Below are positions 32,577 to 56,363 of a stretch of DNA of 64,000 bases, piece by piece (position 1 is the stretch's first letter; each line of letters opens with the position of its first letter). The position numbers and the translations under genes are program-made. Source of the stretch: Branchinecta lynchi (taxonomy: Eukaryota; Arthropoda; Branchiopoda; Anostraca; Branchinectidae). Below the pieces are notes generated by a model, which ran no database searches, was not told the origin of the DNA, and saw nothing but the letters and a program-made list of their open reading frames with translations. The stretch is taken from positions 21,872,641 through 21,936,640 of the forward strand of contig JAKZAP010000018.1 in NCBI GenBank assembly GCA_023053575.1, given 5' to 3'.

Positions 32577-34209
32577 CAACTCGATCTCACACATATGAAG
32601 AACAGTTCAACAGGTCAAGAGACATTCCGGAAAATGACGTCACACAGATCAATGTAGACATAGGAGAGAGCACCCAGACAGAACCAACGAGTCGCCGACA
32701 GAAAAGGAAGGCTAAGGACGTTCGTAGACGAGAGCAGACAGCCGCTTCCGAGAGTGAGGAAGATCCAACCACCTTGAATGCTAAACAGTTGAGCAAACTT
32801 CAAGCGGACGATAAGAGCCTAGAAGGATGCTGGAAAAGGCTAACCAAGGACAAGGATTCAAAATATCGGATGGGTTAGTATACCGAGTCAGCGAATCCAG
32901 GCTGGATGGCACGGAGCAGTGGCAACTTGTTCTTCCACGGATTTGTAGAAAAGCCGTCCTCCGTATCAGTCATGATATCCCAATGAGCGGACACACGGGA
33001 CGAGCGAGAAGTGCTGACAGGATCCTGCAACGTTTCTTTTGGCCTGCTCTCAGAAACAACGTGGCTCGTTACGTCAGGTCCTGTGAGGTCTGTCAACTCA
33101 CGGCAAAGGCCAAGCCTAGGGAAAGAGTGCCGATGGTTCAAATGCCCATCATTACGGAGCCGTTTCGAAGAGTAGCAATGGACATAGTTGGACCACTAAC
33201 TCCTTCCAGAAACGGATTCAAGTTCATGCTAGTGTATTCGGATTACGGGACAAGTTACCCGGAGGTATTTCCTTTGAGAACAACAAATGCCCGCAAGATT
33301 GCCGAAGCACTGGAGCAATGTTTCTGCCGCTTAGGGGTTCCGGAGGAAATCCTTACTGATCAAGGCAGTAACTTTCTGTCAAAAGGCTTAGTGGCCCTGT
33401 ACACCATGCTGGGTGTAAACGCCATAAAGACTAGGCCGTACCACCCTCAAACTGACGGCCTGGTCGAGAGGCTCAACGGCACACTGATATCGCTTCTCAA
33501 GAAGTTCACTTTCGACAATGCGAAAGACTGGGACAGGCTGGTTCCCTACATCTTGTTTGCATACAGGGAAACACCCCAGGCTTCGTGTGGATTCAGCCAC
33601 TTTGAAATGTTGTACGGTCGGCGCCCCAGAGGCCCATTGGATGTTCTCAAGGAACAATGGGAGTCGCACACTGAAAAGGAAAACGACTACCAAACAACAC
33701 CCGTGCATCATCTGCTCGTAGTTCGAGAACGCCTCCAACACATCATGGAAACGGTGCATGTAAACTTGGAGCACGCTCAAACCAGACAGAAAGTCTACTA
33801 CGACCGGAAAGCCAAACAGAGATATTTGGAAGCCGGTGACGAGGTTCTAGTATTGTTGCCAACAGGCACACATAAGCTAGAAACACGATGGAAAGAACCA
33901 TTCAAGATTATCCGAAAACTGAACGACGTCAATTACGAGGTGGAGCTCACAGGAAGAAGGAAAGGCAAGATTCTGCACATTAATCTTCTGAGAAAATTCG
34001 AAACACGTGAACCAGAATTCGCTCTTTTCTCCAAAGAATCTGACTTTGTCCCGACCTTTGATGCTTCAGAGAAAGAGGATTCAAACAAACATCTGTCGGG
34101 TGAGTCGATCAGACACCTGACAATCGAACAAAAAGAACGTCTCTTGGACATTATACATAAGTTTCGAGCGACATTCTCCGACAAGCCTGGTTCGACTGGA
34201 CGCCTGTAG
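32534..34209 (+). pseudogene. Gypsy-type integrase placed directly after protease; RT/RNase H absent
   Basis: A charged linker (32534-32878) and then a 460-residue frame (32827-34209) form the integrase, with a frame shift between them. Features in order: HHCC zinc-binding domain (H..H then 'SCEVCQ', about 33000-33100); catalytic core with 'AMDIVGPL' (Asp), 'LTDQGSNF' (Asp) and 'GLVERLNGTL' (Glu); a GPY/F-like C-terminal module around 'TRWKEPFKIIRKL'. The tail, 'IEQKERLLDIIHKFRATFSD', resembles the spacer that normally precedes reverse transcriptase, and the ORF then stops. Order PR-IN with RT expected afterwards fits Gmr1-like elements. The RT-RNase H block has been lost from this copy. Confidence 0.75.
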
Positions 34210-34329: not shown

Positions 34330-34391
34330 TGTCGTGATTTGATTAATCAACACCTTTTGTTACGTGTGTGATAATGGACGAGTAGCCCCTC
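34330..34391 (+). repeat. 3' LTR, first part, ending in the Polinton target site
   Basis: 62 bp matching the start of the 5' LTR, ending with 'cccctc' (34386-34391). The same six bases recur at 48053-48058 on the other side of the Polinton and are a single copy in the 5' LTR, so they are the target-site duplication. Confidence 0.9.
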
Positions 34392-35022
34392 AGTAGTTAT
34401 ATAAAGGGGGTTCTAGCTCACCCTCCCCCCAATTTCAAAACCCCATTTTAACATCAATTTCTTAAATTTTAACATCCTTTTTACCAAATTATCCCCCTTT
34501 TTAAGAACATTTTTATTTTCTTACTTCCAAAATAAAGGATACAAGAAATGAGAATATTACCCTTTACTACATATAAAATACTACAATATACTACTACTTC
34601 TTTTTTTTACATTTTTCATTTTTTATTCAAATATTACTGAGTAAACAGTTCTAAATCCACATATGTTTCTTTGTTCTTGTTTTCGCGTACAATAGGCTGC
34701 AAAACTAGATTTTTCTTTAAAAGTAATTCGTTAGCAATGGCATTATATTTCTGTGTTATAAACAAATCACAGGGTTTGTCATTATGATTAATAACTACAA
34801 CCAACTTATCACCATATTTTGTCTTAGCAATTCTCATTTTAACAATAGTATATTTCAATCCTAGAACTAGTTCTTCTTTCCTGATTGTCTCATTGTATTT
34901 ATTCATTCTGATTGTATTCAAGACTTCCTTTGTGGACTCCATTTATTAGGGGATGATTTTATTAAATAAAAATCCAGGCTCACGAACTCACATACATATT
35001 TTTATTGATAATATCTAATGTA
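34392..35022. repeat. Polinton left terminal inverted repeat (631 bp)
   Basis: Reverse complement of 47422-48052, equal in length. The only difference I found is G at 34984 against the A/T equivalent at 47460. It contains the whole 102-residue TIR gene and the last few codons of the major capsid gene. A TATATAAAGG box lies within the first 20 bp and points inward. Confidence 0.95.
34634..34942 (-). CDS. TIR-encoded small protein, copy 1 (possible OB-fold)
   Basis: 102 residues, identical in translation to the copy at 47502-47810 because both sit in the TIRs. Start context is TAATAAATGG, 37 bp after the capsid stop. The core alternates hydrophobic and charged residues around 'MRIAKTKYGDKLVVVINH' (about 36-53). 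An Ile/Val..TKYG..VVV pattern is often seen in small beta-barrel single-strand-binding proteins, so an OB-fold DNA-binding role is my inference; no family was recognised with certainty. Being present at both ends doubles the gene dose and places one copy at each terminus. Confidence 0.7.
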   Translation of the reverse strand: MESTKEVLNTIRMNKYNETIRKEELVLGLKYTIVKMRIAKTKYGDKLVVVINHNDKPCDLFITQKYNAIANELLLKKNLVLQPIVRENKNKETYVDLELFTQ

Positions 35023-36353
35023 GCTTTTCTTTCATAATATATAACACAGTAAACATTATATGGTACGGGTTGATTATCTTTCAACGTTAAACTTATTTCA
35101 ATATCAGCAGTTGTTCCATTATAAATATTTGACTCGTGTTTGGAAACATCGAAACAGAATAGTGGATATACTTCTTTAAATTCTTCTATACTAACAACAC
35201 TACCAGTATCAAATGCTAATTGTTTATAACCCAAATGTATGAACCTATTGTAAAGATTTGAGTATTTACATTTGTCATCGCTAAAATCACATTTAAGTGG
35301 TTCTTCGGGATATTTATCCCCATTAATTCTAAGTTCTATGTCTGTTAAATTCATATGATCAAACACCATATTATTCATTAATTGATTGTTATGCTTTTCA
35401 TTTTTCTGTAGCATCACAACTACTTTTGTTGGATTGTTTCTCTCAGATATAACTTTCCAAGTGTGTTCCTTATTTTGACTAACATCGCTTTTATAAGTAT
35501 TACATGCTTCCCACATCAGATTATGCTTTTTATCCTTAGCAAGACCCTTTTCTAATTCACTCATCATTTCGATACTAGGAGCTACAATAGGGATCTTCCA
35601 GGATAAATACTCGATTACTACTTTGAAATTAGTATTTCCATTTCTTATAATCATGTTGTTATCATCATTTCTTCTTAGAAATAATTTATGCGATGCACCT
35701 CTGAAGAATCGTTTGTTTCCTTTCAGAAATCCAAACAATTCTGATAATGGTAAATACATATTTACTAATTTACTGCTCTTTGTTCTGTTATATCTTTTTT
35801 CAAATCCTTTATTATAATTATTATTATTTCTCAAACTGACTGTTCCACCCCCTGCTGCAGCCCCTGCAGCCCCTGCTACTACTGGAGTTGCAGTAAACGA
35901 AGCAATAACAGGATTAATTTCTTTTCCTTGATTATAATCTTTATACCAGAAATGATTTCTTGCTGCACTTCTAGAATAATCATCAGAGTATTCAATCAAC
36001 TTTGTAACGGTAGTTGTAATACCAACATGATTAATTTTTTCAACCGATTCATCGTTTATTACATACTCAGCGGTACTGAATAAATTAAATCCATTATTCG
36101 TTAAAGTAGCAACATCGGTTGCAGCTATAGGAGTCCCATCTTGGTTTACTATTCTTACACTGACATCAAGATAACTTTCACTTGGATAAAACCAAGAATC
36201 TAATTTCTTTGTTACGAATTCAAACTCTGATTTATTAGATACATTCACATCTGTTTCTCGAATTTCTTTAAATTCATATTTAACCACTGTTTCATCCACA
36301 AGCGGTTCATCAAAAATGTTCCATTGCGGACTGATAACTTTATTTACTGCCAT
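34980..36353 (-). CDS. MCP: Major capsid protein (double jelly-roll hexon-like)
   Basis: 457 residues, the right size for Polinton/adintovirus major capsid proteins, which form hexon-like trimers of two jelly rolls. Characteristic segments are 'KKLDSWFYPSESYLDVSV' (about 49-66), 'TLTNNGFNLFSTAEYVIN' (about 83-100), a Gly/Ala-rich loop (about 159-170), then 'MYLPLSELFGFLKG' (about 199-212) and 'IEYLSWKIPIV' leading into the second roll. The start lies in a TATATAAATGG context. The stop lies inside the left TIR, so the last codons are duplicated, without the gene, at the right end. The frame is intact. The identification rests on overall pattern, not on a search. Confidence 0.85.
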   Translation of the reverse strand: MAVNKVISPQWNIFDEPLVDETVVKYEFKEIRETDVNVSNKSEFEFVTKKLDSWFYPSESYLDVSVRIVNQDGTPIAATDVATLTNNGFNLFSTAEYVINDESVEKINHVGITTTVTKLIEYSDDYSRSAARNHFWYKDYNQGKEINPVIASFTATPVVAGAAGAAAGGGTVSLRNNNNYNKGFEKRYNRTKSSKLVNMYLPLSELFGFLKGNKRFFRGASHKLFLRRNDDNNMIIRNGNTNFKVVIEYLSWKIPIVAPSIEMMSELEKGLAKDKKHNLMWEACNTYKSDVSQNKEHTWKVISERNNPTKVVVMLQKNEKHNNQLMNNMVFDHMNLTDIELRINGDKYPEEPLKCDFSDDKCKYSNLYNRFIHLGYKQLAFDTGSVVSIEEFKEVYPLFCFDVSKHESNIYNGTTADIEISLTLKDNQPVPYNVYCVIYYERKATLDIINKNMYVSS

Positions 36354-36383
36354 TTATATAAGAAAGAAATTATTAAATAAAAC

Positions 36384-36740
36384 TTATTTCAGAATCTTTA
36401 ATCCATTGCCAGTCATTAACGTTTTGATCAAGTCCTGACTTCTTTGGTTTAAAATCCTTTTATTTGTACCGATAAGATCCTTCATCGATTTTTTGTTTCC
36501 AATTACATCAATGAGTTCTTTCTTGTTTACATCGATCAGATCTTTCCCATATTCTATTGCTCTGTTTTTCAACAACTCAAATCTCGGTTTAATAATATTA
36601 TTATACATTGACATAGCCCCATCTTTTATTTGTTTTGCTGACGTTTGAAATAACTGGGAATTAACAATGTTTTTGAATACACTACCGATTCCACTTCCAT
36701 ACTGCTTTTTATAAAGTAATCGCTTGTTATTAATCAACAT
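36384..36740 (-). CDS. pVI-like minor virion protein with adenain-type sites at both ends
   Basis: 118 residues, basic and helical, with an N-terminal amphipathic/hydrophobic 'GIGSVFKNIVNSQLF' (about 17-31) like the membrane-active helix of adenoviral pVI. Two sequences fit the adenain consensus (M/I/L/N/Q)XGX|G: QYGS|G near residue 16 and MTGN|G near residue 113. Cleavage at both would release a mature protein and a short C-terminal peptide, as known for pVI, whose C-terminal peptide activates the protease. Start context is CTATAAATG. It lies between the penton-like and major capsid genes. Assignment as pVI-like is inference from layout and these sites. Confidence 0.6.
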   Translation of the reverse strand: MLINNKRLLYKKQYGSGIGSVFKNIVNSQLFQTSAKQIKDGAMSMYNNIIKPRFELLKNRAIEYGKDLIDVNKKELIDVIGNKKSMKDLIGTNKRILNQRSQDLIKTLMTGNGLKILK

Positions 36741-36772
36741 TTATAGGTAAATAATTTTATTTCACTAATCCT

Positions 36773-37495
36773 TTAAGCTTTTCTTAAATGCAGTACGTAT
36801 CCAACGTTATCACCATTCAAATCGATAGGTCTTCCCAACTGATCAGTAATTGTCATTCTCAAGGAGTAAATAAAGTCTTTTGTATTAATAGGAAGGTAGA
36901 TTAATTGTCTAGGATTCTCAACAATTTGACAACCCGGTTCTGTATTCGGAACAAATGTCCAAATGACATCTGATTTACTTTTGTTTACGATAGAACTGTT
37001 TACAAGAGAGCAGTGAATTTGAATTTTATCAACGCTTCTTGTTATATTCGGAAGCTTTGTACCTTCATTGATTTTCTTAGATATCTCACTATCCTTCTCA
37101 AATCCTAAAATCTGACACAAGTCACTATTAAATCTAAACACATATTTTTCTTGTAATAGTATGACAAATCTCATAGATGCTGGATTGGATGAAATTACAA
37201 TAGGACATTTGTCTTTTGGGGTATCAAAATACTGACACAAAAAATAATTCAAACAATCATCGTTATACATCCCATTAGGAATAGTTACATTCATCCATTC
37301 TGTTGCATTATTATCTTCATCTTTCCTGTATTGAAATGTATTATTTCCAAATTTATCACTTATATTATGCCACGAATACCACAAAGTACACTGATTCAAA
37401 CCTATTTCATAATCCCAATTACGATTCAATTCGATTGGTTGACTAAATGTTATATCAATGATACTTTCATTACCTTCAATGTTTAACAACACCAT
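36773..37495 (-). CDS. Minor capsid protein (penton-like single jelly roll)
   Basis: 240 residues. 'IDITFSQPIELNRNWDYEIGLNQCTLWYSWHNIS' region (about 13-46), 'VTIPNGMYNDDCLNYFL' (about 70-86) and the closing 'LGRPIDLNGDNVGYVLHL' (about 220-237) form the pattern seen in Polinton penton-like proteins. These fill the icosahedral vertices as pentamers of a single jelly roll. The frame is intact. The ATG falls 3 bp after the preceding stop, so that stop, AATAAA and the start lie within TAATAAATGG. It belongs to the morphogenesis cluster with the pVI-like and major capsid genes. Confidence 0.75.
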   Translation of the reverse strand: MVLLNIEGNESIIDITFSQPIELNRNWDYEIGLNQCTLWYSWHNISDKFGNNTFQYRKDEDNNATEWMNVTIPNGMYNDDCLNYFLCQYFDTPKDKCPIVISSNPASMRFVILLQEKYVFRFNSDLCQILGFEKDSEISKKINEGTKLPNITRSVDKIQIHCSLVNSSIVNKSKSDVIWTFVPNTEPGCQIVENPRQLIYLPINTKDFIYSLRMTITDQLGRPIDLNGDNVGYVLHLRKA

Positions 37496-37498
37496 TTA

Positions 37499-38329
37499 TT
37501 AGAAATAATTTTTATATATTGAATTGTAATTTCTCTTCGTAAGAAATTTATTTCGCATTAACGAATCCAAAATATCAATAGCTTCATTTCTCACCTCATC
37601 AGATGTATTTCCGTTTACTCTGCTACCTATCAAAGTGTATAATTTTGAAATCATTTCATCACAATTCATAAATATTCCAGTTCCTTGTTGTCTGATAAAG
37701 GGTATACTAGATTGAATTTTTTTTAATCTATCCTTATAGTCTTGTATAAATAAAATAATTTGATCATACTTATTCGAACTATAACTTTTACTTTTCAGAC
37801 CACCATAACTTTGACTTATAGATGTTAAATAATTCAGAGCCCCATCTATTTCGTTATGATTCTTAAGGTAATAATGAGGCATTTTAAAATAATTATCGGT
37901 ACCATTCCAGTCATCTTTATATTTTAAATTAATTTGATTTAATAATTCCACATCAATATTTAAGTTTAGATTTACGTCATATGGTTGTTCTAGATTGGGT
38001 TCTATCGCATGAGTGGGAGCTCGACTCGATTCCTCTGAAGTATTGTTCTGTAAAGCTGTTTTAAATGTATCACCTAATCTGATAAACCGTCTTCTTGAAT
38101 TATTATCACCTTCAAGTAGTTTATTAATTATCGTTTCAGCGTTCTCTTGTAATTTTTTGATGGTATCTTTAGTGTTTTCTTTTTGTGCTATAATAACTGG
38201 AGCGTTTAATTCTGAAGCATATTCCCGAAATCCTGCCTTCTCCATCTCATTTTGTTGAACCTTGCTTCTCTGAATTTCTCTGTTCTTCACTATATCCGAT
38301 AACATATCACTCAAGCGTCTTGAATCCAT
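37499..38329 (-). CDS. Polinton PX/PY-type protein, role unknown
   Basis: 276 residues. The N-terminal third is charged and probably coiled coil (heptad-like, about 1-90). The C-terminal part from about 165 holds 'IPFIRQQGTGIF', followed by helical 'LYTLIGSRVNGNTSDEVRNE' and a final helix ending in KNYF. A short Gly-rich turn followed by a helical 'leucine..gs..agn' module recurs in uncharacterised Polinton proteins placed near capsid genes, so a virion-assembly role is likely but unproven. QQGT|G fits the adenain consensus. Start context is TATATAAATGG. The frame is intact. Confidence 0.6.
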   Translation of the reverse strand: MDSRRLSDMLSDIVKNREIQRSKVQQNEMEKAGFREYASELNAPVIIAQKENTKDTIKKLQENAETIINKLLEGDNNSRRRFIRLGDTFKTALQNNTSEESSRAPTHAIEPNLEQPYDVNLNLNIDVELLNQINLKYKDDWNGTDNYFKMPHYYLKNHNEIDGALNYLTSISQSYGGLKSKSYSSNKYDQIILFIQDYKDRLKKIQSSIPFIRQQGTGIFMNCDEMISKLYTLIGSRVNGNTSDEVRNEAIDILDSLMRNKFLTKRNYNSIYKNYF

Positions 38330-38345
38330 TTATATACAAGTAATT

Positions 38346-39317
38346 TTATTTCATAATAAATTTTGAAAGTTCTTTTTCATAGAACCCTCCTTGAATTAAT
38401 TCCCCACTTTTGTCGGAAATTTCATAAGTAATGGGAATGGTAGGTCTGATGGTTGCTATCTGAAATACCTCATCCGTATAATTAGGTAAATATCCTTTAT
38501 CAAAAACACTTTTTTCTTTTTTAATTCTGACTAAATCCCCTACTTTGACGTTTCCTGTGATTTTGTAGTCATCTACTGGAGGAAACAGAGCACTAAAAAC
38601 CTTTTTCTGATTAACCTTTTTACTAGCATCAACTGGTTTCATTTGTATTGAACGGTGGTACGAGTTATTATAATTACTCACAAATAAAGGTAAAATATCA
38701 ATCCAATTAGTAGTGTTATTGTGAGTGAAATATTTCCATAACTTTTCTTTTAGCGTTCTGTTGAATCGTTCTACAATTTGCGCTTTCAATTCGCTTTCAG
38801 ATGCAAACCAGTGTATATCGTTATTTTTCAAAAAAGATTGAACATTTCTCATCACAAATTCTTTACCTTTATCAGTTTGTAGTTTCTTAGGAATTCTTTC
38901 TTTAAATATAACACTGAATGCTTTTATTATTTCAGCACCCGTTTTGTCTTTCAGAGGGATACACCAAGCATATTTACTAAAGCAATCAATAACAGTTAAA
39001 ATGTAATTTGTTTTATTATTTTCTTTTTTATATTTCTGCATGTCAACTAAATCAGCTTGCCATTGCTCATCAACATAGTGAACATACACTCGCCTCCTTT
39101 CAAAGTTATGATAGGAAGGTTTGTGTAACGTATACACATTCTCATTTTGCAACACATTTTTTATTTTATCCTTGGAAACCTTAACACCATTTTCTTTTAA
39201 TTTTCTGTAAATATCATCCACACCTGAATAATTAGAATAATACGTCTTTAAAATATCTGTTTCTGCGTTGAGGTTTTTTTTAAAAAGCGATTTTTCCTCG
39301 ATCCGCAAATAACACAA
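38346..39317 (-). CDS. Retrovirus-type integrase, open frame without its own ATG
   Basis: DDE integrase of the Polinton type, which inserts the element and creates the 6-bp duplication. Counting in this frame, the catalytic residues are D89 ('WQADLVDM'), D149 ('QTDKGKEF') and E183 ('IVERFNRTL'). An N-terminal helical region (about 20-70) precedes them, and an SH3/chromo-like C-terminal module starts near 'VKVGDLVRIKKEK'. There is no ATG before the core: the first in-frame Met lies inside the catalytic domain. The frame is the -1 frame of the zinc-ribbon ORF (39248-39415), with the phased slippery heptamer T TTA AAA at 39284-39278. It is most simply read as a frameshift extension of that ORF. 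Non-AUG initiation or a 1-bp deletion are alternatives. Confidence 0.85.
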   Translation of the reverse strand: MCYLRIEEKSLFKKNLNAETDILKTYYSNYSGVDDIYRKLKENGVKVSKDKIKNVLQNENVYTLHKPSYHNFERRRVYVHYVDEQWQADLVDMQKYKKENNKTNYILTVIDCFSKYAWCIPLKDKTGAEIIKAFSVIFKERIPKKLQTDKGKEFVMRNVQSFLKNNDIHWFASESELKAQIVERFNRTLKEKLWKYFTHNNTTNWIDILPLFVSNYNNSYHRSIQMKPVDASKKVNQKKVFSALFPPVDDYKITGNVKVGDLVRIKKEKSVFDKGYLPNYTDEVFQIATIRPTIPITYEISDKSGELIQGGFYEKELSKFIMK

Positions 39318-39415
39318 TTCCCTTTCAGCATTGGAACATTATTTTTTTGTGACACTGCCTTAAACATTGATTCAGTGTCAGTGCTCTTTTTACATTTCAT
39401 ACAATAAATCTCCAT
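39248..39415 (-). CDS. Zinc-ribbon ORF upstream of and overlapping the integrase
   Basis: 55 residues, too short for many ORF filters. The start is in the canonical TAATAAATGG context, 17 bp after the protease stop. The protein begins with YCMKCKK and has a second 'CVIC' pair about 28 residues later, followed by basic residues: a four-Cys zinc ribbon of a kind common in Polintons. It ends at 39248, but the integrase frame opens in -1 just before, over 'cgc ttt tta aaa aaa acc'. A zinc finger before the integrase core parallels the HHCC or ribbon domains of other integrases. It may work alone or as the N-terminal domain of a frameshift product. Confidence 0.7.
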   Translation of the reverse strand: MEIYCMKCKKSTDTESMFKAVSQKNNVPMLKGNCVICGSRKNRFLKKTSTQKQIF

Positions 39416-39432
39416 TTATTAGAAAACAATTT

Positions 39433-39777
39433 TTATAAACGAAAAGCTACCAACTTCATTTTCCGCTGGATGTAGGAAATGCAGTGAAAACCACAGTTTA
39501 ATTCATCTATATTTTGAACAGCAAGATTTTCATAAGCTATTTTTTTCTTTGAAGTTTTTAGATATTTAACTATTTCTTTTCCTGGAGGAATACCGAAAGA
39601 ATCGAAAAATTCGACATAGGGGGATTCAGGTAGATTACAATAGGCAACCCAATGTGTTCCAGGCATTCCACGTTTGTCATAGTTGATTACACCACATTCC
39701 GAATCGTTTATATGTTTGGGTAGCGTATCTAAAGCGAACACACCTCTAAACTGTGGTATACTCCCTAATGCATCCAT
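39433..39777 (-). CDS. Adenain-like cysteine protease (Ulp1/C5-like fold)
   Basis: In the ATG-based frame of 114 residues the catalytic set is H42 ('GTHWVAY'), D59 ('FFDSFG'), Q88 and C95 ('LNCGFHC'). The H-to-acid spacing of 17 and Q-to-C spacing of 7 equal those of adenoviral protease, which matures virion proteins at GG or GX|G sites. Conserved-looking sequence ('GPLTNFDI') continues upstream of this ATG in the same frame, back to a stop near 39847. So the true protein is longer and the ATG at 39777 is probably not the start; it also lacks the TAAATG context of other genes. The frame is -1 relative to the pX-like gene, with A AAA AAC at 39840-39834. Confidence 0.85.
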   Translation of the reverse strand: MDALGSIPQFRGVFALDTLPKHINDSECGVINYDKRGMPGTHWVAYCNLPESPYVEFFDSFGIPPGKEIVKYLKTSKKKIAYENLAVQNIDELNCGFHCISYIQRKMKLVAFRL

Positions 39778-39800
39778 AATATCAAAATTGGTTAGAGGTC

Positions 39801-40370
39801 CTACTTTACTTTTGCTTCTTTTTTGATGCCCCCGTTTTTTGACTTCCTAGGCCTTCCACGTACCCCATTACCCACAACTTTTTGTGTTCCAGGAAGTGTT
39901 AGCGCTCCACCTGTGTTGACATCATCGGTTTTTTCCTTCTTAGGTCTACCACGTACACCATTACCGGTAACTTTTTGTGTTCCAGGAAGTTTTAGCGCAC
40001 CACCTGTGTTGGTCATTTTATCCATAATTTTCTTACCAGCGAATGTACCCAAAGCAGCAGCACCACTTGTTAAAGCTGCCTTACCAAGGGTAATTGCTAG
40101 CGGTATTAAAAATGGAAGTAATCCACCCTTTTGAATCGCTTCTCTCATCTGCTTGTATGATACATCTATGTCACAACCCTTATTATTCATTTTACAGGTT
40201 TCAATTTTATCAATTTGTCGTTTACTTAAAAGTAACTTAACTGGTTCTCGTTCATTTTGTCTACTATGACTAACACGTATCTGACATTTTTGTTTAGCAT
40301 CAAAGCATTTCTTCAGCTTTCCTTTCTGAAGCTTTGACAAATAAACTGTATACTCCATTGTTTCAACCAT
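39801..40370 (-). CDS. pX-like core/minor protein with two AT-hooks
   Basis: 189 residues. The first 80 or so are basic with two similar helical blocks ending in Lys-rich 'SKRQIDKIETCK' and 'SYKQMREAIQKGG'. A hydrophobic stretch (about 81-115) starts GGLLPFLIPL, like the small adenoviral core protein pX. The tail has two copies of a roughly 30-residue unit, each with NTGGAL, LPGTQKV, GNGV and RGRP(K/R)K; RGRP is the AT-hook core that binds AT-rich minor grooves. QKGG|L and both NTGG|A sites fit the adenain XGG|X consensus. Start context is CCCTAATAAATGG. The final codons overlap the protease frame, with a phased slippery heptamer at 39840-39834. Genome packaging and condensation is the likely role. 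Confidence 0.65.
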   Translation of the reverse strand: MVETMEYTVYLSKLQKGKLKKCFDAKQKCQIRVSHSRQNEREPVKLLLSKRQIDKIETCKMNNKGCDIDVSYKQMREAIQKGGLLPFLIPLAITLGKAALTSGAAALGTFAGKKIMDKMTNTGGALKLPGTQKVTGNGVRGRPKKEKTDDVNTGGALTLPGTQKVVGNGVRGRPRKSKNGGIKKEAKVK

Positions 40371-40400
40371 TTATTAGGGAATTAATTTATCATATAAATT

Positions 40401-41135
40401 TTATTTCTTTAGTTTAGTTTTCATGAAGTCTTCTGTTTTCTTAACAAAATCTTGATCAACAGGTTTTTGCTCTAAAAGCCTTTTTAAAATGTTTACGACT
40501 GCTCTTTCAATACCATTGATATGCAGATTTTGGTCCAAATCATTTGAACCAATAAAACTGCTAATTTTTTGTTGGTTTTCGAGCTTTTTCTCAATACTTT
40601 TCCTAAGGTCAAGAAGCTTTTTGTCAATACTTTTGCTAAGGTCGCCAATCTTCGTTTCAATACTTATGCTAAGGGCTTGTTGGTTTTCGAGCTTTTTGTC
40701 AAAATCTAAAAGATACGTAGTTAACGTTCCTAAATTAACAGCATCATGTTTGTTTCTAGGATCTTGAACATTTGTGATAACTTTATTCCCAGCATCAAGT
40801 TCTTTATCAGTAACCTGAATTGTTGGTTTTACAAATAATCCTTTATCTTTGATCCTTACCATTGCATTGTCAGGAGAATCATCTACCAAGGTTAATCTGT
40901 TAATATCTTCGCTAAAATATTGATTGGCTTGCACTTGTTCTGCAGTTATTTGTTCTTTAAACTGATTCAAAATAATAGTCATCAACCTTAAGCTAATCGC
41001 ATCCTGATCTGCTTTGGCATCACCTAAATTAACAATTCGCCTATCCTGTAGGTTAATGTTACCGTTTTCGTCAGTAACTACCTTTACATTCGATTCGTTA
41101 CTAACCTTTTTTCCGACACTACCAAATTTATTCAT
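40401..41135 (-). CDS. Fibre- or spike-like protein (repeats plus coiled coil)
   Basis: 244 residues. Two related segments, 'RRIVNLGDAKADQDAISL' (about 32-49) and 'NKVITNVQDPRNKHDAVNL' (about 117-135), follow the pattern K-I-T-N-(L/V)-xDP-xxx-DAVN known from trimeric phage and virus tail-fibre shafts. A long heptad-rich stretch follows (about 145-200), with duplicated 'KKLENQQ' units and a run of SIDKKLLDLRKSIEKK type. A trimeric attachment protein or scaffold is therefore plausible; function is inference. Start context is TATAATAAATG. It lies between the ATPase and the pX-like gene. The frame is intact. Confidence 0.5.
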   Translation of the reverse strand: MNKFGSVGKKVSNESNVKVVTDENGNINLQDRRIVNLGDAKADQDAISLRLMTIILNQFKEQITAEQVQANQYFSEDINRLTLVDDSPDNAMVRIKDKGLFVKPTIQVTDKELDAGNKVITNVQDPRNKHDAVNLGTLTTYLLDFDKKLENQQALSISIETKIGDLSKSIDKKLLDLRKSIEKKLENQQKISSFIGSNDLDQNLHINGIERAVVNILKRLLEQKPVDQDFVKKTEDFMKTKLKK

Positions 41136-41151
41136 TTATTATAGAAATAAA

Positions 41152-41829
41152 TTATCCGGTAAATTTTTCAAAGTTTTTCCTGTACTTAAGGGTTTTATCT
41201 TTTATTTTTAAATCTATGAAGAAAAAACCGTAGCCCTTGGTTGCAGTCTCGAATTGTTTGAGAAATTTTTCATCGTCTATACTGGATACATGGCTTTGTC
41301 TTATTAATTTTACTTCTTTTGGATTAGAACACTGAAAGAATGCAAAATAATTGCACTGGAGTCTTACCACCTTTGGCGTTTTATGATAGCTTTGAGACAA
41401 GTAAATAATTGAGGCATTTTTCTTTCTTCCTCTTATGAATAAATCTTCTATTTTCTTCTGGTCTTTTTCAGTGACAAAATCGTCAAAGATAATCAAGTTT
41501 TGGTACTCAGGGTCTAAGTCGTCCACATCGACAATATCATCAAGATTGTTACTTACTGTTAAGACTTTCGATTTGCATTGTGACTCCAAAGTGGTTAAAT
41601 TGGTTATAAGGTCTTGATATTTATCTTCTTCAAGATCTTTAGCATACAAGTATATTCGGTTGAAACAAAGATATTCATAAATTAAATTCAAAAGAAGGTT
41701 AGTTTTCCCTGTTCCAGAACTTCCACAAATTAATAATCTAAATGGCCACTGAGGTGCAAGGTCGTGCTTATTCTGATAAGTGTTCTTTTCACTAAAGTCA
41801 TAGACTTTGATTGGAGCCTTTTCATTCAT
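41152..41829 (-). CDS. FtsK/HerA-type genome-packaging ATPase (A32-like)
   Basis: 225 residues, the usual size for Polinton packaging ATPases, which pump DNA into the capsid. Walker A is GSSGTGKT at about 36-43 and Walker B is LIIFDDF at about 111-117. A downstream 'ASIIYLSQSYHKTPKVVR' (about 139-156) corresponds to the sensor/arginine region of the family. The frame is intact. Start context is CTAAATAAATG. Upstream lies a 21-bp tandem repeat array separating it from the polymerase stop. Together with capsid, penton and protease genes it makes the element look capable of forming virions. Confidence 0.9.
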   Translation of the reverse strand: MNEKAPIKVYDFSEKNTYQNKHDLAPQWPFRLLICGSSGTGKTNLLLNLIYEYLCFNRIYLYAKDLEEDKYQDLITNLTTLESQCKSKVLTVSNNLDDIVDVDDLDPEYQNLIIFDDFVTEKDQKKIEDLFIRGRKKNASIIYLSQSYHKTPKVVRLQCNYFAFFQCSNPKEVKLIRQSHVSSIDDEKFLKQFETATKGYGFFFIDLKIKDKTLKYRKNFEKFTG

Positions 41830-41874
41830 TTATTTAGGAAGAATTTTTCATTATAAGATTTACTTGAGTATTTT

Positions 41875-42036
41875 AAGTATATACTTGATTTTTTGAAGTA
41901 GGTACTTGAATTTTTTAAGTAGGTACTTGAATTTTTTAAGTAGGTACTTGAAGTTTTTAAGTAGGTACTTGAAGTTTTGAAGTAGGTACTTGAAGTTTTG
42001 AAGTAGGTACTTGAATTTTTTAAGTAGGTACTTGAA
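41875..42036. repeat. 21-bp tandem repeat between ATPase and polymerase genes
   Basis: About seven units of 'aagtaggtacttgaattttt' with small changes (aat to aag, final t to g). Each unit carries a near-palindrome, aagtaggtactt, once per two helical turns. It fills the longest internal gap between minus-strand genes, so it may be an upstream control region of the ATPase gene or a spacer. Confidence 0.8.
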
Positions 42037-42037
42037 T

Positions 42038-45000
42038 TTAATGTTTATAACCTAAAGGTAAAGTGTGTATTTTATCGCTTGTTACTATCCTTTTATCATC
42101 CTTAGGATCTAACGCTTTTTTATTCTGTTCTTCTAGAAACATTTTGTGCTTGTATGATCTTAAGTTATACTGGGTTATAGAAAGGTTTTCCGTTTTACCA
42201 AACAGTACATCCTTATAGTTTTGAATGGTAATTTTATCTTTAACGATATTGGTTTTTATTCCTTTCAGTTTTTTGCTAGCTTTTGAAGGGTCTTGGTTGT
42301 CCTTTAAATAAGCATATACCTTTGATCGTAATCCAACAAACTCTGTCATAACCTGTCCACCTAATTCATCTTTCATCATTCCTATCACTTTCTTATTTAC
42401 ACTAGGAAACCCATATGGATTATCTTTCGCATAATCAGATGTATCGAACCTCTCATTCAAATCTTGTTTGATATCTTCATAGAAATCTTCGGTTCGAATG
42501 TCGTATATGAAAGAATCAGTGTCCATATAACACAAATCAATTTTATCTCCATATTTAGGCTTCATATAATCATAATGGAATTCATACATCAATAACTTGG
42601 ATAGTTCTAATACAGCAAAGCCGATATACATTGGTTTGTCTAATTTTATCTTTTCCTTTGACATTCTTGCTACTGAAAAGTTTTCACTGAATATTATTTC
42701 AGATTTAAAGTTGGGTTTCTTTATTATTTTTTCTCTTGTTGTATCATCCGTTATTATTTCCATATCCGCTCGCTTCCTTACGTTTTCCATAGTTTTTCCA
42801 AAGCAAGCATTATTCATAAGCTTAAAGAAATCCTTTTCAAAATCATTTGTACCTTTAGTTCTAAGTGCTGTGTTGTGGTCTATATATCCGTTTAAGTAAG
42901 CACTTTCAGTGAATCCTAGTATTCTGTGTACTCTTTTCAATATCAAACCTTTTTGTAAATAGAATTCTAGGTTCCTGTGGTGAACTACATAGTTAGTTTT
43001 ATCTAATACTGTGGTACATAGCTTACCGTTAAAGTGTTCGGGTGCTAATGGTAAATCCTTGTGTAATTCGTGTAGTTCTTTTGGATATTCTAAGTCTACC
43101 TCATATATAGCACCCACATCTTGTCTCACCGACTTAATCGTAATCACCGACTTGATATGACTTTTCAGATGGTTGTAATACTCGATTGATTCATATTCAT
43201 TCCTTTCTTTCAAATCATCCGGTATGGAAATGAATTGGAAATCATTCGCGGGTAAATTCTGCGACATCGCCCACCCATATAAATTATTTTTATCCAAATA
43301 CACTAAATAATTAGATGGCTTATTCTTATTATAATCACTTGTATATTTATTATTTGCTTTTGCGTATCTTTTTATACATTGGGATACACCACCTCTTATT
43401 CCTTTTTCTATAAAGGTATACATGTCTTCCTTTGAGAATAACGGCAAGTCTACTTTCGAATGCTTTAGGAAAGCATCCCATGTTAGTCCTGGAGCTGAGA
43501 AGTAATGAAGTGGATCCAGATCATAATTATGTATACACACATTTCTGAAATTCTCCACAACGTCTGATAGAATTAACACATCACTTTTTAGGTACAACTT
43601 GGTATAATCAAGTAATGTTTTACAGTTAAATTGTTTCCATATAGATACCGCTCTTTTATAATCACTTTTGTCAATACCTTTCCCCGTCAACCTAGAATAA
43701 AAGCTTTCTATTGGTGGTAAGTTTGTACAATTCATTTTATCGAAACTATCCACGAATTCATAGGGATACACACCTTTTTTAATTATTTCTTTGAATTCAT
43801 CGTCATTTTTGAAGCTGTTAGATGTGTACTTGAAATTCTGTCTTAGATGATTACAAGGTACTTTGCAATCACATGTTGCTAAATTTGCTGATAGTTTGTC
43901 TAAAGATGAAGCCATAAATCTAATTGAATCTATAAACCGCATCTCATATTTTATTTCCGTATCCGTCTTTCTTATACTTATTGATTTCGAGAATGAGATG
44001 AAACTTTCTGCACTTTCAAAAATTCCGTTATCAGGTATCAATTCTCTAACAAATAAATGAGAGTCATATTTTGATAAATTATGCATTACTACCGGGATAT
44101 GCCTAGGAATCCTGTATTTCATATTACATTCAGCATGAGCAAATCCCCTATCTTCTCCTGTCATGTGGTCGTGATCAAAGTGAGGATTTTCAGTAATTTC
44201 AGTTGTACAGATGTGACAAGTCTTATTCATTAGATTTTTCCATTTTTTGGTAATTTCTGCATTGGTATAAGTATGGTTTCTTTGTCTGCTTTCATATTTG
44301 TTTGCAATTTCTGTGGATACTTTTGTAACGGTTTTAACAAAATGTTTTGCAGCGTCTTCACCGAAATAATCGTAGTATTTGTTCTGGTTTGTATCAAAGG
44401 AACAGCATACCTGAAATCCGTAAGCAAATGGCTTCTGTTTGGCCACTTTTATTGTTTTCTTCCCGTGTACTTGATTGTATTCTTCGTTATAAGACTCAAA
44501 GTCGGCTATTATGCAATAAGGTACTTTCATTTGTTTTGCAATATTTTTATATTGTATACTTGAACCTTCAGGAGGCATTATAATATCAGGATCTTCGCAA
44601 TTATTTTTACTTTCATGTTTTTCAAAGCATTCTTCCTTCTTAAAATGCCTTCCGCAATAAGTGCAGAGGTATGTCTTTGTTTTCTTTTTAGATATTTGAG
44701 GACCAACTAATCTGCTCAGATCCTTTACCAGTACATAATGATTATCGAAATATAATAAATTAATAACATGTTTAGCTGTTTTGCCATTGATTGTACTTTT
44801 TAGTATATGACTTCTGATAATTTTCTCTTTTTCAATTTGAAATAAACAAATCTTAATGTTGTATCTATTTTCAAATTTGTGTATATCTTTAGTATCCATT
44901 GGGAAGTTGGTAACCCCTTCGAAATCAAATTGGTTCTCATATTGCTTATATTTCGAAAGTCTCTCAGCGTTGTCCTTGGTTGGGTATAAATGTGCTAAGA

Positions 45001-45052
45001 TGGACCAAAGAAAGCATTTTTGATCTAAATTTTTTATATTTATGCACGCTTT
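42038..45052 (-). CDS. polB: Family B DNA polymerase (protein-primed type), catalytic part
   Basis: Positions count from the ATG at 44899 (953 residues); conserved sequence continues in frame upstream to about 45052. C2H2 finger (about 79-101); exonuclease ExoI 'DFESYNEEY' (D133, E135), ExoII 'NLSKYDSHLF' (about 274-283), ExoIII 'YLKSDVL' (Y436-D440); an HNH/endonuclease VII-like 'CHIC..DHDHMTG..RG..H..CN' insert (about 228-259); polymerase motif A 'DKNNLYG' (536-542), motif B 'KLMNNACFGKT' (about 693-703), motif C 'YMDTDS' (about 791-796). All catalytic residues look intact. The region before 44899 ('CINIKN', 'CFLWSILAHLYP') is family-typical, and the ATG at 44899 lacks the TAAATG context. 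Translation therefore probably enters from the upstream ORF by -1 shift at A AAA AAG (45055-45049). Replicates the element. Confidence 0.9.
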   Translation of the reverse strand, partial: KACINIKNLDQKCFLWSILAHLYPTKDNAERLSKYKQYENQFDFEGVTNFPMDTKDIHKFENRYNIKICLFQIEKEKIIRSHILKSTINGKTAKHVINLLYFDNHYVLVKDLSRLVGPQISKKKTKTYLCTYCGRHFKKEECFEKHESKNNCEDPDIIMPPEGSSIQYKNIAKQMKVPYCIIADFESYNEEYNQVHGKKTIKVAKQKPFAYGFQVCCSFDTNQNKYYDYFGEDAAKHFVKTVTKVSTEIANKYESRQRNHTYTNAEITKKWKNLMNKTCHICTTEITENPHFDHDHMTGEDRGFAHAECNMKYRIPRHIPVVMHNLSKYDSHLFVRELIPDNGIFESAESFISFSKSISIRKTDTEIKYEMRFIDSIRFMASSLDKLSANLATCDCKVPCNHLRQNFKYTSNSFKNDDEFKEIIKKGVYPYEFVDSFDKMNCTNLPPIESFYSRLTGKGIDKSDYKRAVSIWKQFNCKTLLDYTKLYLKSDVLILSDVVENFRNVCIHNYDLDPLHYFSAPGLTWDAFLKHSKVDLPLFSKEDMYTFIEKGIRGGVSQCIKRYAKANNKYTSDYNKNKPSNYLVYLDKNNLYGWAMSQNLPANDFQFISIPDDLKERNEYESIEYYNHLKSHIKSVITIKSVRQDVGAIYEVDLEYPKELHELHKDLPLAPEHFNGKLCTTVLDKTNYVVHHRNLEFYLQKGLILKRVHRILGFTESAYLNGYIDHNTALRTKGTNDFEKDFFKLMNNACFGKTMENVRKRADMEIITDDTTREKIIKKPNFKSEIIFSENFSVARMSKEKIKLDKPMYIGFAVLELSKLLMYEFHYDYMKPKYGDKIDLCYMDTDSFIYDIRTEDFYEDIKQDLNERFDTSDYAKDNPYGFPSVNKKVIGMMKDELGGQVMTEFVGLRSKVYAYLKDNQDPSKASKKLKGIKTNIVKDKITIQNYKDVLFGKTENLSITQYNLRSYKHKMFLEEQNKKALDPKDDKRIVTSDKIHTLPLGYKH

Positions 45053-46113
45053 TTTATTTTTTCGAAATCTGGCAGTATTTTAAACGTTCCTCCCATGTAA
45101 GATTCTATTCGTGTCATCCTATAATCAATTCCTTCATACCGACTAAATTGTAGCCCAGATCGAGGGGTATTACTTAAAGAACTCAGTCTCTTGTTATTAT
45201 CATCCAAATGATTATGAGTAAGAATGCTATTTTTATTTAAAATCCAAGAAGTACTGTTGTAATATACTACTACTTCTTCATCATTCTCCTGTCGATGGAA
45301 AATAACCCGAGTTACAAACTGAACTCTATATTGATTTATTTCGTTCATTCGCCGCTGTATATCTGCGAAAGTAAAAGCAATAAGAGTATGCTCGTCAACT
45401 CCATTACCTTGAACTGAAACGTTTACAGTGAATATATTCTCACTTTCGCTAAAAATAGTAGGCTGCTGTTCTTCTTCAGTTCTAAATAAATGATCAGGAA
45501 TTAATTTTTCTACTTGGATTTTTTTCTTATTTATGAAGAGAGTTGATAAACCAATTGGTTTCTGTCTACTGTTGTCACGTCTTTCTGTTTGATCTCTTAT
45601 GATATCTCTATTTTTCTGTACGGAATCTTTATGTTTGGTAATAATATTATTATAGTATTCTCCAACTCTTTTTAGTTCTTCTTCTCGGTTTCCGCGAGTT
45701 GATAGGTTCTTGTTTTTCAGAAATTTCTTTAATTCGCTTGTCTCTTTTTCTTTGTTATCATTGTATTCTTGTTTTAGTTTTGTAATGGTGATATTATTTT
45801 CTTTTATCTCATCTTCCAGAATGGTTCGTAATCTCGGTTCTGGTTTGTAGTCGGATGGTCTGTTCTTATTATGAGTTCTTTCGTTTCTGCGTTCAATTTT
45901 AATTTTATCTTCAGCTATCAAAATATACTTATTAAGATGGTTTATTATATTATTTGTTATTTCATGTTTCTTAGCTCCATTTGTTTTGATTTTATTAATT
46001 TTCGCATAAGTCCGCAGTTCATTATATGTGTATAGCGATAATCTTTGTATAACCGCTTTGTTGTTTGATATAACCTTTTTACAAAGCTGAATAACCTCTG
46101 CAGTATTCATCAT
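45040..46113 (-). CDS. N-terminal ORF of the polymerase gene, with SAP-like domain
   Basis: 357 residues. 'LSLYTYNELRTYAKINKIKT' onwards (about 25-60) fits a SAP DNA-binding motif. A long charged coiled-coil-like stretch follows (about 65-185). The rest ('WILNKNSI', 'YEGIDYRMTRIESYMGGTFK') is the kind of sequence found just before the exonuclease domain in single-ORF Polinton polymerases. The frame ends at 45040, two codons after the phased heptamer A AAA AAG; the catalytic part continues in -1. It is therefore the front part of the polymerase, or a separate product made when no shift occurs. Start context is CCCCTATTAAATG. The divergent 86-bp repeat array lies upstream. Confidence 0.75.
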   Translation of the reverse strand: MMNTAEVIQLCKKVISNNKAVIQRLSLYTYNELRTYAKINKIKTNGAKKHEITNNIINHLNKYILIAEDKIKIERRNERTHNKNRPSDYKPEPRLRTILEDEIKENNITITKLKQEYNDNKEKETSELKKFLKNKNLSTRGNREEELKRVGEYYNNIITKHKDSVQKNRDIIRDQTERRDNSRQKPIGLSTLFINKKKIQVEKLIPDHLFRTEEEQQPTIFSESENIFTVNVSVQGNGVDEHTLIAFTFADIQRRMNEINQYRVQFVTRVIFHRQENDEEVVVYYNSTSWILNKNSILTHNHLDDNNKRLSSLSNTPRSGLQFSRYEGIDYRMTRIESYMGGTFKILPDFEKIKKRA

Positions 46114-46199
46114 TTAATAGGGGAACATTTTTATTAATAAATTTCTCCCGTCTGCGTTTTCTCAGTCGTAAAGAAAAGCACTGGTTTCAGTATGCGTTT

Positions 46200-46535
46200 C
46201 ACAGAGCAAGCGCTATCTATATTCTCTCCGATCAATCAAGAAAGTTTCAGTAGAGTTCCGTAGATAGCAGATGTGTTTTGTGTTTCACGGAGCAAGCGCT
46301 ATCTATATTCTCTCCGATCAATCAAGAAAGTTTCAGTAGAGTTCCGTAGATAGCAGATGTGTTTTGTGTTTCACGGAGCAAGCGCTATCTATATTCTCTC
46401 CGATCAATCAAGAAAGTTTCAGTAGAGTTCCGTAGATAGCAGATGTGTTTTGTGTTTCACGGAGCAAGCGCTATCTATATTCTCTCCGATCAATCAAGAA
46501 AGTTTCAGTAGAGTTCCGTAGATAGCAGATGTGCT
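46200..46535. repeat. 86-bp tandem repeat (four copies) between divergent genes
   Basis: 'caagcgctatc' occurs at 46207, 46293, 46379 and 46465, exactly 86 bp apart, and the copies are nearly identical. Each unit has inverted 8-mers, gctatcta and tagatagc, about 45 bp apart. The array separates the leftward polymerase gene from the rightward membrane-protein gene, a suitable place for a shared promoter/enhancer or a replication element. No ORF spans it. Confidence 0.85.
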
Positions 46536-46595
46536 CCGAATCGCGAACCTTTCATTCAATCAAATAATTTCTGAAACAATTTTATTACATAATAA

Positions 46596-47018
46596 ATGGA
46601 AGAATTAGAAAAGAAAATGTATGTTTACCGTCGCAGTTACAAGTACTACAATCGTATAAGTAATAGCTTACTTGTATCCAAATTCCTCTTTTCAGCAGCA
46701 GGAATGTCTGCGTTTCTAGTGCTACCTTTAGCTTCTTTAAGTTTGGGTGCTGTTATCATCGAAATAATTGAAAAGCAGTTAAGCATTGCTGATAGAAAAG
46801 CAGAATTTAGGACAAATTACAATTTTTATACTGAGTTGTTCTCAATGCTAAAATGCGGACAATTAACAATTGAGGAGGTAATTCAGAGAGAAACAGAGAT
46901 GCGTAAAACCTTTCGATTTTTTCCTCGCGAAAAATACATGAAACAGGTTCGCTTGAACGGCTATAAATATTGTAAGAACGAAACTATCAAAATACAAGAA
47001 AATTTACCAAAAATATAA
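46596..47018 (+). CDS. Small membrane protein of the Polinton
   Basis: 140 residues. A basic N-terminus precedes a hydrophobic region (about 24-58) that can form one long or two short membrane helices ('LLVSKFLFSAAGMSAFLVLP', then 'ASLSLGAVIIEII'). A charged helical C-terminal half follows, with 'YTELFSMLKCGQLTIEEVIQ' (about 87-106). Similar short hydrophobic proteins recur in Polintons, with unknown function; membrane or virion-entry roles are guesses. It is on the opposite strand to the main gene block, with start context CATAATAAATGG. The frame is intact. Confidence 0.65.
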   Translation: MEELEKKMYVYRRSYKYYNRISNSLLVSKFLFSAAGMSAFLVLPLASLSLGAVIIEIIEKQLSIADRKAEFRTNYNFYTELFSMLKCGQLTIEEVIQRETEMRKTFRFFPREKYMKQVRLNGYKYCKNETIKIQENLPKI

Positions 47019-47029
47019 AATTTTTGCAA

Positions 47030-47253
47030 AACCTCCCACCCCAGACTTTGAAGATTGAAGATGTTTATTTGTCGTCTTATTATTTTTTATGGTGTGTCTG
47101 GGGTAGCCCCGTATGGGGAGGAAACTCATCTCTGAGTTTTTTTCGCCATCACTCACTATCAACGGATTGCTGGTAGTGGGATTCGATCTCACGACATCGT
47201 TGATACAATGGTTTCCAAGATTGCACGACTTAGAGCATTCTGCCAACGGGGCC
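47030..47253 (-). repeat. Possible tRNA-derived SINE insertion
   Basis: Read on the minus strand from about 47253, the sequence starts gccccgttggcagaatgctc, resembling a tRNA A-box (tggcagaatgc). About 50 bp later comes 'agatcgaatccc', resembling a B-box (ggttcgaatcc). A non-tRNA body with a 'cccatacggggctacccc' palindrome follows, then an A/T-rich end near 47050. The base composition differs from the AT-rich Polinton around it. Flanking duplications were not resolved. No gene lies in 47019-47421. Confidence 0.5.
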
Positions 47254-47421
47254 CGAAAAATCTCCGCAACGAAATGTTTTGTGATGTGAATACTAATGCG
47301 CAATGAGATTTTCTGTTTTTTGTTGCCCTAAGAGCTTTATCAGTACTAGAGGCAGAATTGTGGGTACGTCGAGGAGATTTTAATTTGATGATGTGATGAA
47401 TATCGATTTGGATTTTTTTTT

Positions 47422-48052
47422 TACATTAGATATTATCAATAAAAATATGTATGTGAGTTTGTGAGCCTGGATTTTTATTTAATAAAATCATCCCCTAATA
47501 AATGGAGTCCACAAAGGAAGTCTTGAATACAATCAGAATGAATAAATACAATGAGACAATCAGGAAAGAAGAACTAGTTCTAGGATTGAAATATACTATT
47601 GTTAAAATGAGAATTGCTAAGACAAAATATGGTGATAAGTTGGTTGTAGTTATTAATCATAATGACAAACCCTGTGATTTGTTTATAACACAGAAATATA
47701 ATGCCATTGCTAACGAATTACTTTTAAAGAAAAATCTAGTTTTGCAGCCTATTGTACGCGAAAACAAGAACAAAGAAACATATGTGGATTTAGAACTGTT
47801 TACTCAGTAATATTTGAATAAAAAATGAAAAATGTAAAAAAAAGAAGTAGTAGTATATTGTAGTATTTTATATGTAGTAAAGGGTAATATTCTCATTTCT
47901 TGTATCCTTTATTTTGGAAGTAAGAAAATAAAAATGTTCTTAAAAAGGGGGATAATTTGGTAAAAAGGATGTTAAAATTTAAGAAATTGATGTTAAAATG
48001 GGGTTTTGAAATTGGGGGGAGGGTGAGCTAGAACCCCCTTTATATAACTACT
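47422..48052. repeat. Polinton right terminal inverted repeat (631 bp)
   Basis: Reverse complement of 34392-35022. It includes the second copy of the TIR gene and a silent duplicate of the last codons of the major capsid gene (about 47460-47480). Confidence 0.95.
47502..47810 (+). CDS. TIR-encoded small protein, copy 2
   Basis: 102 residues, same protein as 34634-34942 because of the inverted repeat. The start is TAATAAATGG after a 'tttaataaaatcatcccc' leader, identical in both copies. Here it follows the membrane-protein gene and the SINE-like insertion, so its upstream region beyond the TIR differs from copy 1. Function is unknown; an OB-fold-like beta pattern is suggested. Confidence 0.7.
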   Translation: MESTKEVLNTIRMNKYNETIRKEELVLGLKYTIVKMRIAKTKYGDKLVVVINHNDKPCDLFITQKYNAIANELLLKKNLVLQPIVRENKNKETYVDLELFTQ

Positions 48053-48058
48053 CCCCTC

Positions 48059-54165: not shown

Positions 54166-54341
54166 TGACTGACTGACTGACTGTCTGTCTGTCTGTCTTA
54201 ACTGATATTTTGATGTTGATTTAACTGACTGTCTGTCTGTCTGACTGTCTGTCTGTCTGACTGTCTGTCTGTCTGTCCTAACTGATCTTTTGATTTTGAT
54301 GTAACTGACTGTCTGTCTGTCTTGACTGACTGTCTGTCTGA

Positions 54342-54379
<38 letters not shown>

Positions 54380-56329: not shown

Positions 56330-56363
<34 letters not shown>

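Follow-up and report, generated by a model that had tools for sequence, protein, structure and literature searches.

A Polinton family of Branchinecta lynchi whose integrase and protease are probably made by -1 ribosomal frameshifting

The stretch of DNA analyzed here (the window) comprises 64,000 nucleotides (nt) of the genome of the anostracan Branchinecta lynchi (assembly GCA_023053575.1, contig JAKZAP010000018.1, positions 21,872,641 to 21,936,640 of the forward strand) and harbors a Polinton/Maverick element at window positions 34392..48052, whose integrase and protease occupy frames offset by -1 from those of the genes upstream. Polintons, or Mavericks, are defined by long terminal inverted repeats and a 6-bp target duplication. 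The ends of the element agree with this definition: the repeats (34392..35022 and 47422..48052) are 631 nt long and 100% complementary, without a mismatch, and each is flanked by the duplicated hexamer CCCCTC (34386..34391 and 48053..48058). The main genes, all on the minus strand, likewise form the set of a Polinton, with a family B polymerase gene (PolB), an rve integrase, an Ulp1/adenain-like protease, an A32-like packaging ATPase (41152..41829; Pfam PF04665, E 2.1e-13) and a major capsid protein of the double jelly roll type (34980..36353; PF21738, E 1.9e-27).

Three pairs of open reading frames (ORFs) overlap in this element, the downstream frame being offset by -1 each time, as the initial annotation of the window had reported. 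At junction 1, the zero frame is that of a 55-residue zinc ribbon ORF (DUF5679; 39248..39415; PF18930, E 6.4e-11) and the shifted frame that of the integrase (38346..39338; PF00665, E 2.2e-14). At junction 2, a pX-like basic protein of 189 residues (39801..40370), carrying an AT-hook-like motif by a weak Pfam match, precedes the protease frame (39433..39846). At junction 3, an ORF encoding a SAP-bearing N-terminal part of PolB (45040..46113; Pfam SAP_new25) precedes the PolB frame proper (42038..45079), from which it is severed in the window copy. PolB was identified through its homologs, Pfam matching accessory domains only. The protease frame had no Pfam match; its AlphaFold model (mean predicted local distance difference test score, 81.9) found the adenovirus protease 4wx4 as its best Foldseek match (E 9.8e-06), and a profile built with its relatives matched the protease part of S273R of African swine fever virus (E 1.7e-6). 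The pX gene also contains a 93-nt duplication (39818-40003, 80% identical) that presents a GRPKK-like motif twice and is gapped in some copies.

Each overlap holds a heptamer of the X XXY YYZ type, at the place and in the zero-frame phase that had been described. At junction 1, T TTA AAA (39284-39278) overlaps with another heptamer in the same phase, A AAA AAA (39281-39275), forming a slippery run T TTA AAA AAA (39275..39284) that sits in a T5A8 run. Junctions 2 and 3 hold A AAA AAC (39834..39840) and A AAA AAG (45049..45055), respectively, the latter at a frame break private to the window copy (see below). The zero frame closes 9, 10 and 2 codons downstream of the heptamers of junctions 1, 2 and 3, so the layout of a -1 frameshifting site, an in-phase heptamer in a -1 overlap with a stop soon after, is present at junctions 1 and 2. 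The chance of finding at least one heptamer in overlaps of these lengths is 0.18, 0.095 and 0.083, respectively (product 0.0014), and 0.36, 0.14 and 0.11 when codons are shuffled within each upstream ORF. The heptamers by themselves are weak evidence, and it is their conservation among copies that decides.

Copies of the family were searched in the 575.7-Mb assembly that contains the window. With the DUF5679 domain as query, the zinc ribbon frame measured 55 amino acids (aa) in 136 of the 150 places scored, counted by eye (best of 824 candidates); other lengths in this set were 44 aa in four places, 45 aa in one and 64 aa in one. With the integrase as query, the 126 places scored (best of 1871) gave frames of 330 aa in 108, 337 aa in 7, 323 aa in 8, 325 aa in 2 and 315 aa in 1, again by eye, and none of these, spanning 315-337 aa, was long enough to include the zinc ribbon. 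The pX frame was 188-190 aa long in 150/150 places scored (best of 953), two of them with one internal stop. We fetched 30 integrase loci, the window's own among them: in all 30, no insertion or deletion fell over junction 1 or 2, and both heptamers were unchanged; loss of the heptamers alongside conserved flanking proteins had been named at the outset as an observation that would speak against frameshifting. Among 11 short stretches over junction 1, picked for odd frame lengths or divergence, small length changes in or beside the T/A run place zinc ribbon and integrase in a single frame in L066 and L070, L080 has lost the zinc ribbon start, two (L064 and L068) are discussed below, and the remaining six retain the -1 offset. 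The junction 2 heptamer was kept in all eight further stretches that covered the site, a ninth (L075) having missed it. Junctions 1 and 2 are a family-wide arrangement.

This arrangement leaves the two enzymes without an obvious start. No ATG occurs in the integrase frame before the catalytic core (DLVDM) in any of the 30 loci. The protease frame has a sole early ATG, at 39777 (residue 24), which falls within the first helix of the AlphaFold model (residues 20-27) and downstream of L18, N20, D22 and I23, all invariant in 7/7 aligned rows. Among relatives, P0170, P0173 and P0178 start with MKPL[T/S]NVDIS and P0130 with MKLLTNIDIS, and in P0186 and P0196 the motif lies up to about 17 residues from the N-terminus; the similarity to P0178 begins at residue 17 of the protease frame (48% over 113 residues). 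Neither integrase nor protease thus has a good AUG of its own.

The shifted frames are also under purifying selection. After the zinc ribbon stop, the integrase frame showed ratios of nonsynonymous to synonymous substitution (dN/dS) of 0.03-0.12 in six copies compared with the window, without stops, and after the pX stop, the protease frame showed 0.09-0.19 in six copies, also without stops. The two other frames, where the ratio was defined, gave 0.9-3.7 in the integrase region and 0.73-1.58 in the protease region, with stops in many rows, and for PolB, taken as a control, six diverged copies gave 0.09-0.12 and one nearly identical copy 0.39. When variants of 29 copies were pooled, the corresponding ratio for polymorphisms (pN/pS) was 0.09 for the integrase (18 silent, 7 non-silent) and 0.27 for the protease (21 silent, 21 non-silent). 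Before the heptamer, changes in the zinc ribbon frame were mostly silent in L074 (6 silent, 1 non-silent) and L076 (5 silent, 1 non-silent), and a stop arises in the integrase frame of L074 over this stretch; these changes, few and partly common to both copies, are compatible with selection acting on the zinc ribbon frame up to the run and on the integrase frame from there on. Junctions 1 and 2 combine a conserved arrangement with selection on the shifted frame, as expected of -1 frameshifting.

Relatives in the protein collection extend this picture. The closest integrases are P0121 (88% identical), which begins inside the integrase and is uninformative on the overlap of junction 1, and P0122 (71%), whose N-terminus, back-translated into the neighboring frame, fits C-G-S-K/R-K/R-N-R-F-L-K-K, that is, the end of the zinc ribbon. 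If the ribbon of P0122 keeps F-L-K, T TTA AAA is forced by the genetic code. Stand-alone pX proteins are P0241 (89%, with identical last residues) and P0242 (60%). DUF5679 and rve are united in a single protein in six of the 120 integrase relatives listed (P0161, P0197, P0202, P0222, P0231 and P0232), and another six carry protease and rve in one ORF (P0130, P0170, P0173, P0178, P0186 and P0196). These relatives have the domains found here, in the case of zinc ribbon and integrase also in the same order. The DUF5679-rve proteins are encoded in a single frame, whereas here only a -1 shift would connect the two parts; the protease-rve proteins join the protease to the integrase, whereas here it follows pX. 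The former show that a protein combining zinc ribbon and integrase occurs naturally, one that this element would obtain in a different way. Searches of viral contigs yielded one distant PolB locus and one distant integrase locus, a further search of these yielded no locus, and neither did a search of other genome contigs.

Junction 3 does not belong to this arrangement. With PolB as query, 39 of the 48 places scored (best of 1554 candidates) have a continuous frame of 1358 aa; two measure 1356 aa and seven are shorter, including the window copy at 1013 aa. Within the 201 nt around the junction, the length found in the window recurs in none of the 29 other loci fetched, so the -1 offset is not conserved among these copies. 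Of the 120 PolB relatives listed (of 3076 matches), 98 extend upstream by 150 residues or more within one ORF, 14 by 50-149 and 8 by fewer; none of these relatives aligned with the SAP piece at E<1e-3. Terminal-protein and OTU-like domains are described as part of the Polinton PolB, with one coral exception, in a preprint (PMC11071308). That coral Polinton, with the terminal protein as a separate gene, indicates that a split PolB is not unheard of and counts against our rejection of a programmed shift at SAP/PolB, which we nevertheless reject on the continuity and length differences given above. Junction 3 is a break private to the window copy among those examined, caused by mutation or by assembly error. 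By eye, 32 of the 48 PolB copies could be paired with an integrase row at the right distance (30 at 330 aa, one at 350 and one at 310), and 25 of the 26 that combine a continuous PolB with a matched integrase row have the 330-aa integrase frame. The retrovirus-like -1 expression that the initial annotation put forward for exactly three enzymes is thus well supported by other copies for integrase and protease and fails for the polymerase; the alignment of other copies of this genome, which it had proposed, found junctions 1 and 2 family-wide and junction 3 mostly continuous.

Based on these results, we propose that -1 ribosomal frameshifting produces both the integrase and the protease of this Polinton family, a reading to which we give a probability of roughly three in four. 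Most ribosomes on the zinc ribbon gene would stop after 55 residues, and a minority would slip back by one base on T TTA AAA AAA and produce a zinc ribbon-integrase fusion; similarly, most ribosomes on pX would stop at 189 residues, and a minority slipping at A AAA AAC would yield a pX-protease fusion. In the simplest form of this model, two tRNAs would slip simultaneously, at junction 1 on T TTA AAA or on A AAA AAA, which overlaps it, and at junction 2 on A AAA AAC. The polymerase would stand outside the scheme, the SAP/PolB break belonging to the window copy. We infer that it is the ribosome rather than RNA polymerase that slips, and likewise the exact slip site, the ratio of products and the roles of the fusions. 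The zinc ribbon may serve in DNA or partner binding by the integrase. By analogy with Gag-Pro, we conjecture that pX might deliver a small number of protease molecules to DNA or into a particle.

Several observations weigh against this proposal. Heptamers in phase are not rare in this A-rich element (25 per 3756 codons in 13 frames). No downstream stimulatory RNA structure was found when 93 nt and 63 nt downstream were folded, in a model that does not cover pseudoknots (z-scores of 0.07 and 0.10 at junction 1 and of -0.08 and 0.67 at junction 2), consistent with the earlier remark that none was clear. Such structures are common in -1 frameshifting, and they are not required; barring an overlooked pseudoknot, any shift here would be of modest extent and lack a stimulator. 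Zinc ribbon and integrase share one frame, of 350 or 356 aa, in 8 of the 150 places scored with the DUF5679 query and in 3 of the 120 scored with P0122, at least two of the three being among the eight, and the clean -1 arrangement is lost in L064 and L068 of the odd stretches mentioned above. The genome searches ranked places by similarity to the query and scored the best candidates only, so that the counts apply to those family members that most resemble the queries. Concerning selection, a seventh protease copy (L061) gave a dN/dS of 0.53 on 3 changes, the numbers are small throughout, and the integrase values are biased down by the picking of copies on protein similarity, for which the protease was not used. 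Finally, the overlap in P0122 is deduced from protein and not from DNA, and P0241 and P0242 are known as pX proteins alone, with the protease frame out of view.

The slip could also occur during transcription, RNA polymerase adding or dropping bases on the A runs so that a minority of transcripts would be translated normally into the fusions. The T5A8 run of junction 1, its variation in several of the odd copies and a report of +1 transcriptional slippage in one IS3-family element (PMC6211511) speak for it. Junction 2, however, offers only six A before C, unchanged in the 30 loci, the A run of P0122 is limited to at most six by the genetic code for F-F-K-K-G, and the heptamers lie exactly in the phase for tandem slippage; we consider this explanation unlikely. 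We regard as improbable to a similar degree that the two enzymes have starts of their own, with near-cognate codons for the integrase and the internal AUG at 39777, reached by leaky scanning or reinitiation, for the protease. ATT (39254), AAG (39248) and ACG (39245) do lie in the integrase frame near the start of the domain, the protease ATG follows the pX stop by 23 nt, and several relatives have their own M near the integrase or the protease domain. Against such starts stand the conserved L-N-DI upstream of the protease ATG, the position of this ATG inside the first helix and the lack of any AUG before the integrase core in 30/30 loci, and they would leave unexplained why relatives fit the same overlap.

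That all three junctions are damage, an amplifying master copy having lost its frames and the family having been moved by enzymes from elsewhere, is very unlikely. Junction 3 is damage of this kind, and in a few copies a single frame spans zinc ribbon and integrase, but decay accounts neither for the low dN/dS and the absence of stops in the shifted frames of the compared copies nor for P0122, which at 71% identity still fits the -1 overlap. Homopolymer errors of sequencing or assembly at all three junctions are hardly credible. All three lie in A runs, and junction 3 is indistinguishable from an error without reads; junctions 1 and 2, in contrast, are equal in length in the 30 loci, which lie on many contigs, and at junction 2 the same separation of pX is seen in P0241 and P0242, which come from other sources. 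We reject error for junctions 1 and 2, given the absence of insertions and deletions and the unchanged heptamers described above. An intron bridging junction 1 seems unlikely as well: the DUF5679 match ends at 39284, only 42 nt away from the conserved tyrosines of the integrase (39242), and such an intron would need to be very short.

The frameshifting proposed here resembles known systems in part. The heptamer A AAA AAC is used at a retroviral gag-pro junction, and with gag-pro the element would share the class of heptamer and a protease made at a low ratio and fused to a particle protein; it differs in being a double-stranded DNA (dsDNA) element, with separate genes and no downstream structure found. 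In bacterial insertion sequences of the IS3 family, an upstream ORF is joined by a -1 shift to the transposase (OrfA/OrfAB; PMC5771124). Unlike the present element, these are bacterial, and the likeness lies in expression only. We know of no IS3-family element with DUF5679 as its upstream domain. Closer to Polintons, the accessible text of a preprint on adintoviruses (PMC11071296) applies KnotInFrame and suggests -1 shifts close to where Penton ends, with Hexon-Adenain fusions as a further possibility. These candidates, like ours, are predicted -1 slippery sites, in related elements; they concern Penton C-termini and Hexon-Adenain, and not zinc ribbon-integrase or pX-protease. In the Polinton, Maverick and adintovirus literature that we searched, mostly outside subscription journals and in partial texts, we found no proposal of a -1 shift for either of the latter pairs.

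We also lean, with less assurance than for the frameshifting as such, toward a broader view, namely, that integrase and maturation protease are expressed only as -1 fusions, that this constitutes an independent, stimulator-free version of Gag-Pro and OrfAB in a dsDNA element, that it is kept beyond this genome and that the slip rate sets both the transposition rate and the dose of protease per particle. If so, frameshifting would have evolved in a dsDNA mobile element as a means of dosage control over the kinds of enzymes that it governs in retroviruses and in bacterial insertion sequences. Annotation of such Polintons would miss or truncate integrase and protease, because these have no usable AUG. 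The scheme would further provide a handle on whether Polintons form particles, since, with a pX-protease fusion, one would expect the protease to be present in few copies and to be borne by a structural protein.

Other features of the element and its surroundings were recorded. At the C-terminus of the integrase, where a chromodomain is a criterion for adintoviruses (PMC11071296), none was found, Pfam at E 0.01 matching rve only; the window integrase stops short of the chromodomain present in its relatives. A 102-aa ORF lies within each terminal repeat (34634-34942 and 47502-47810), making two per element. An 86-bp tandem repeat (3.9 copies at 99%, 46196-46533) that directly precedes the SAP-PolB gene could serve as a promoter or in replication, and a 21-bp tandem repeat (8.5 copies, 41861-42039) separates the PolB stop from the ATPase gene. 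The left end of the Polinton is adjoined by a retroelement-like integrase frame (32815-34209), Ty3/gypsy-like by eye. At the far side of the window, a tandem array of about 9.8 kb with 21/25-bp units (TGACTGTCTGTC; 54178-64000) reaches the end of the window, which is also the end of the contig (C9).

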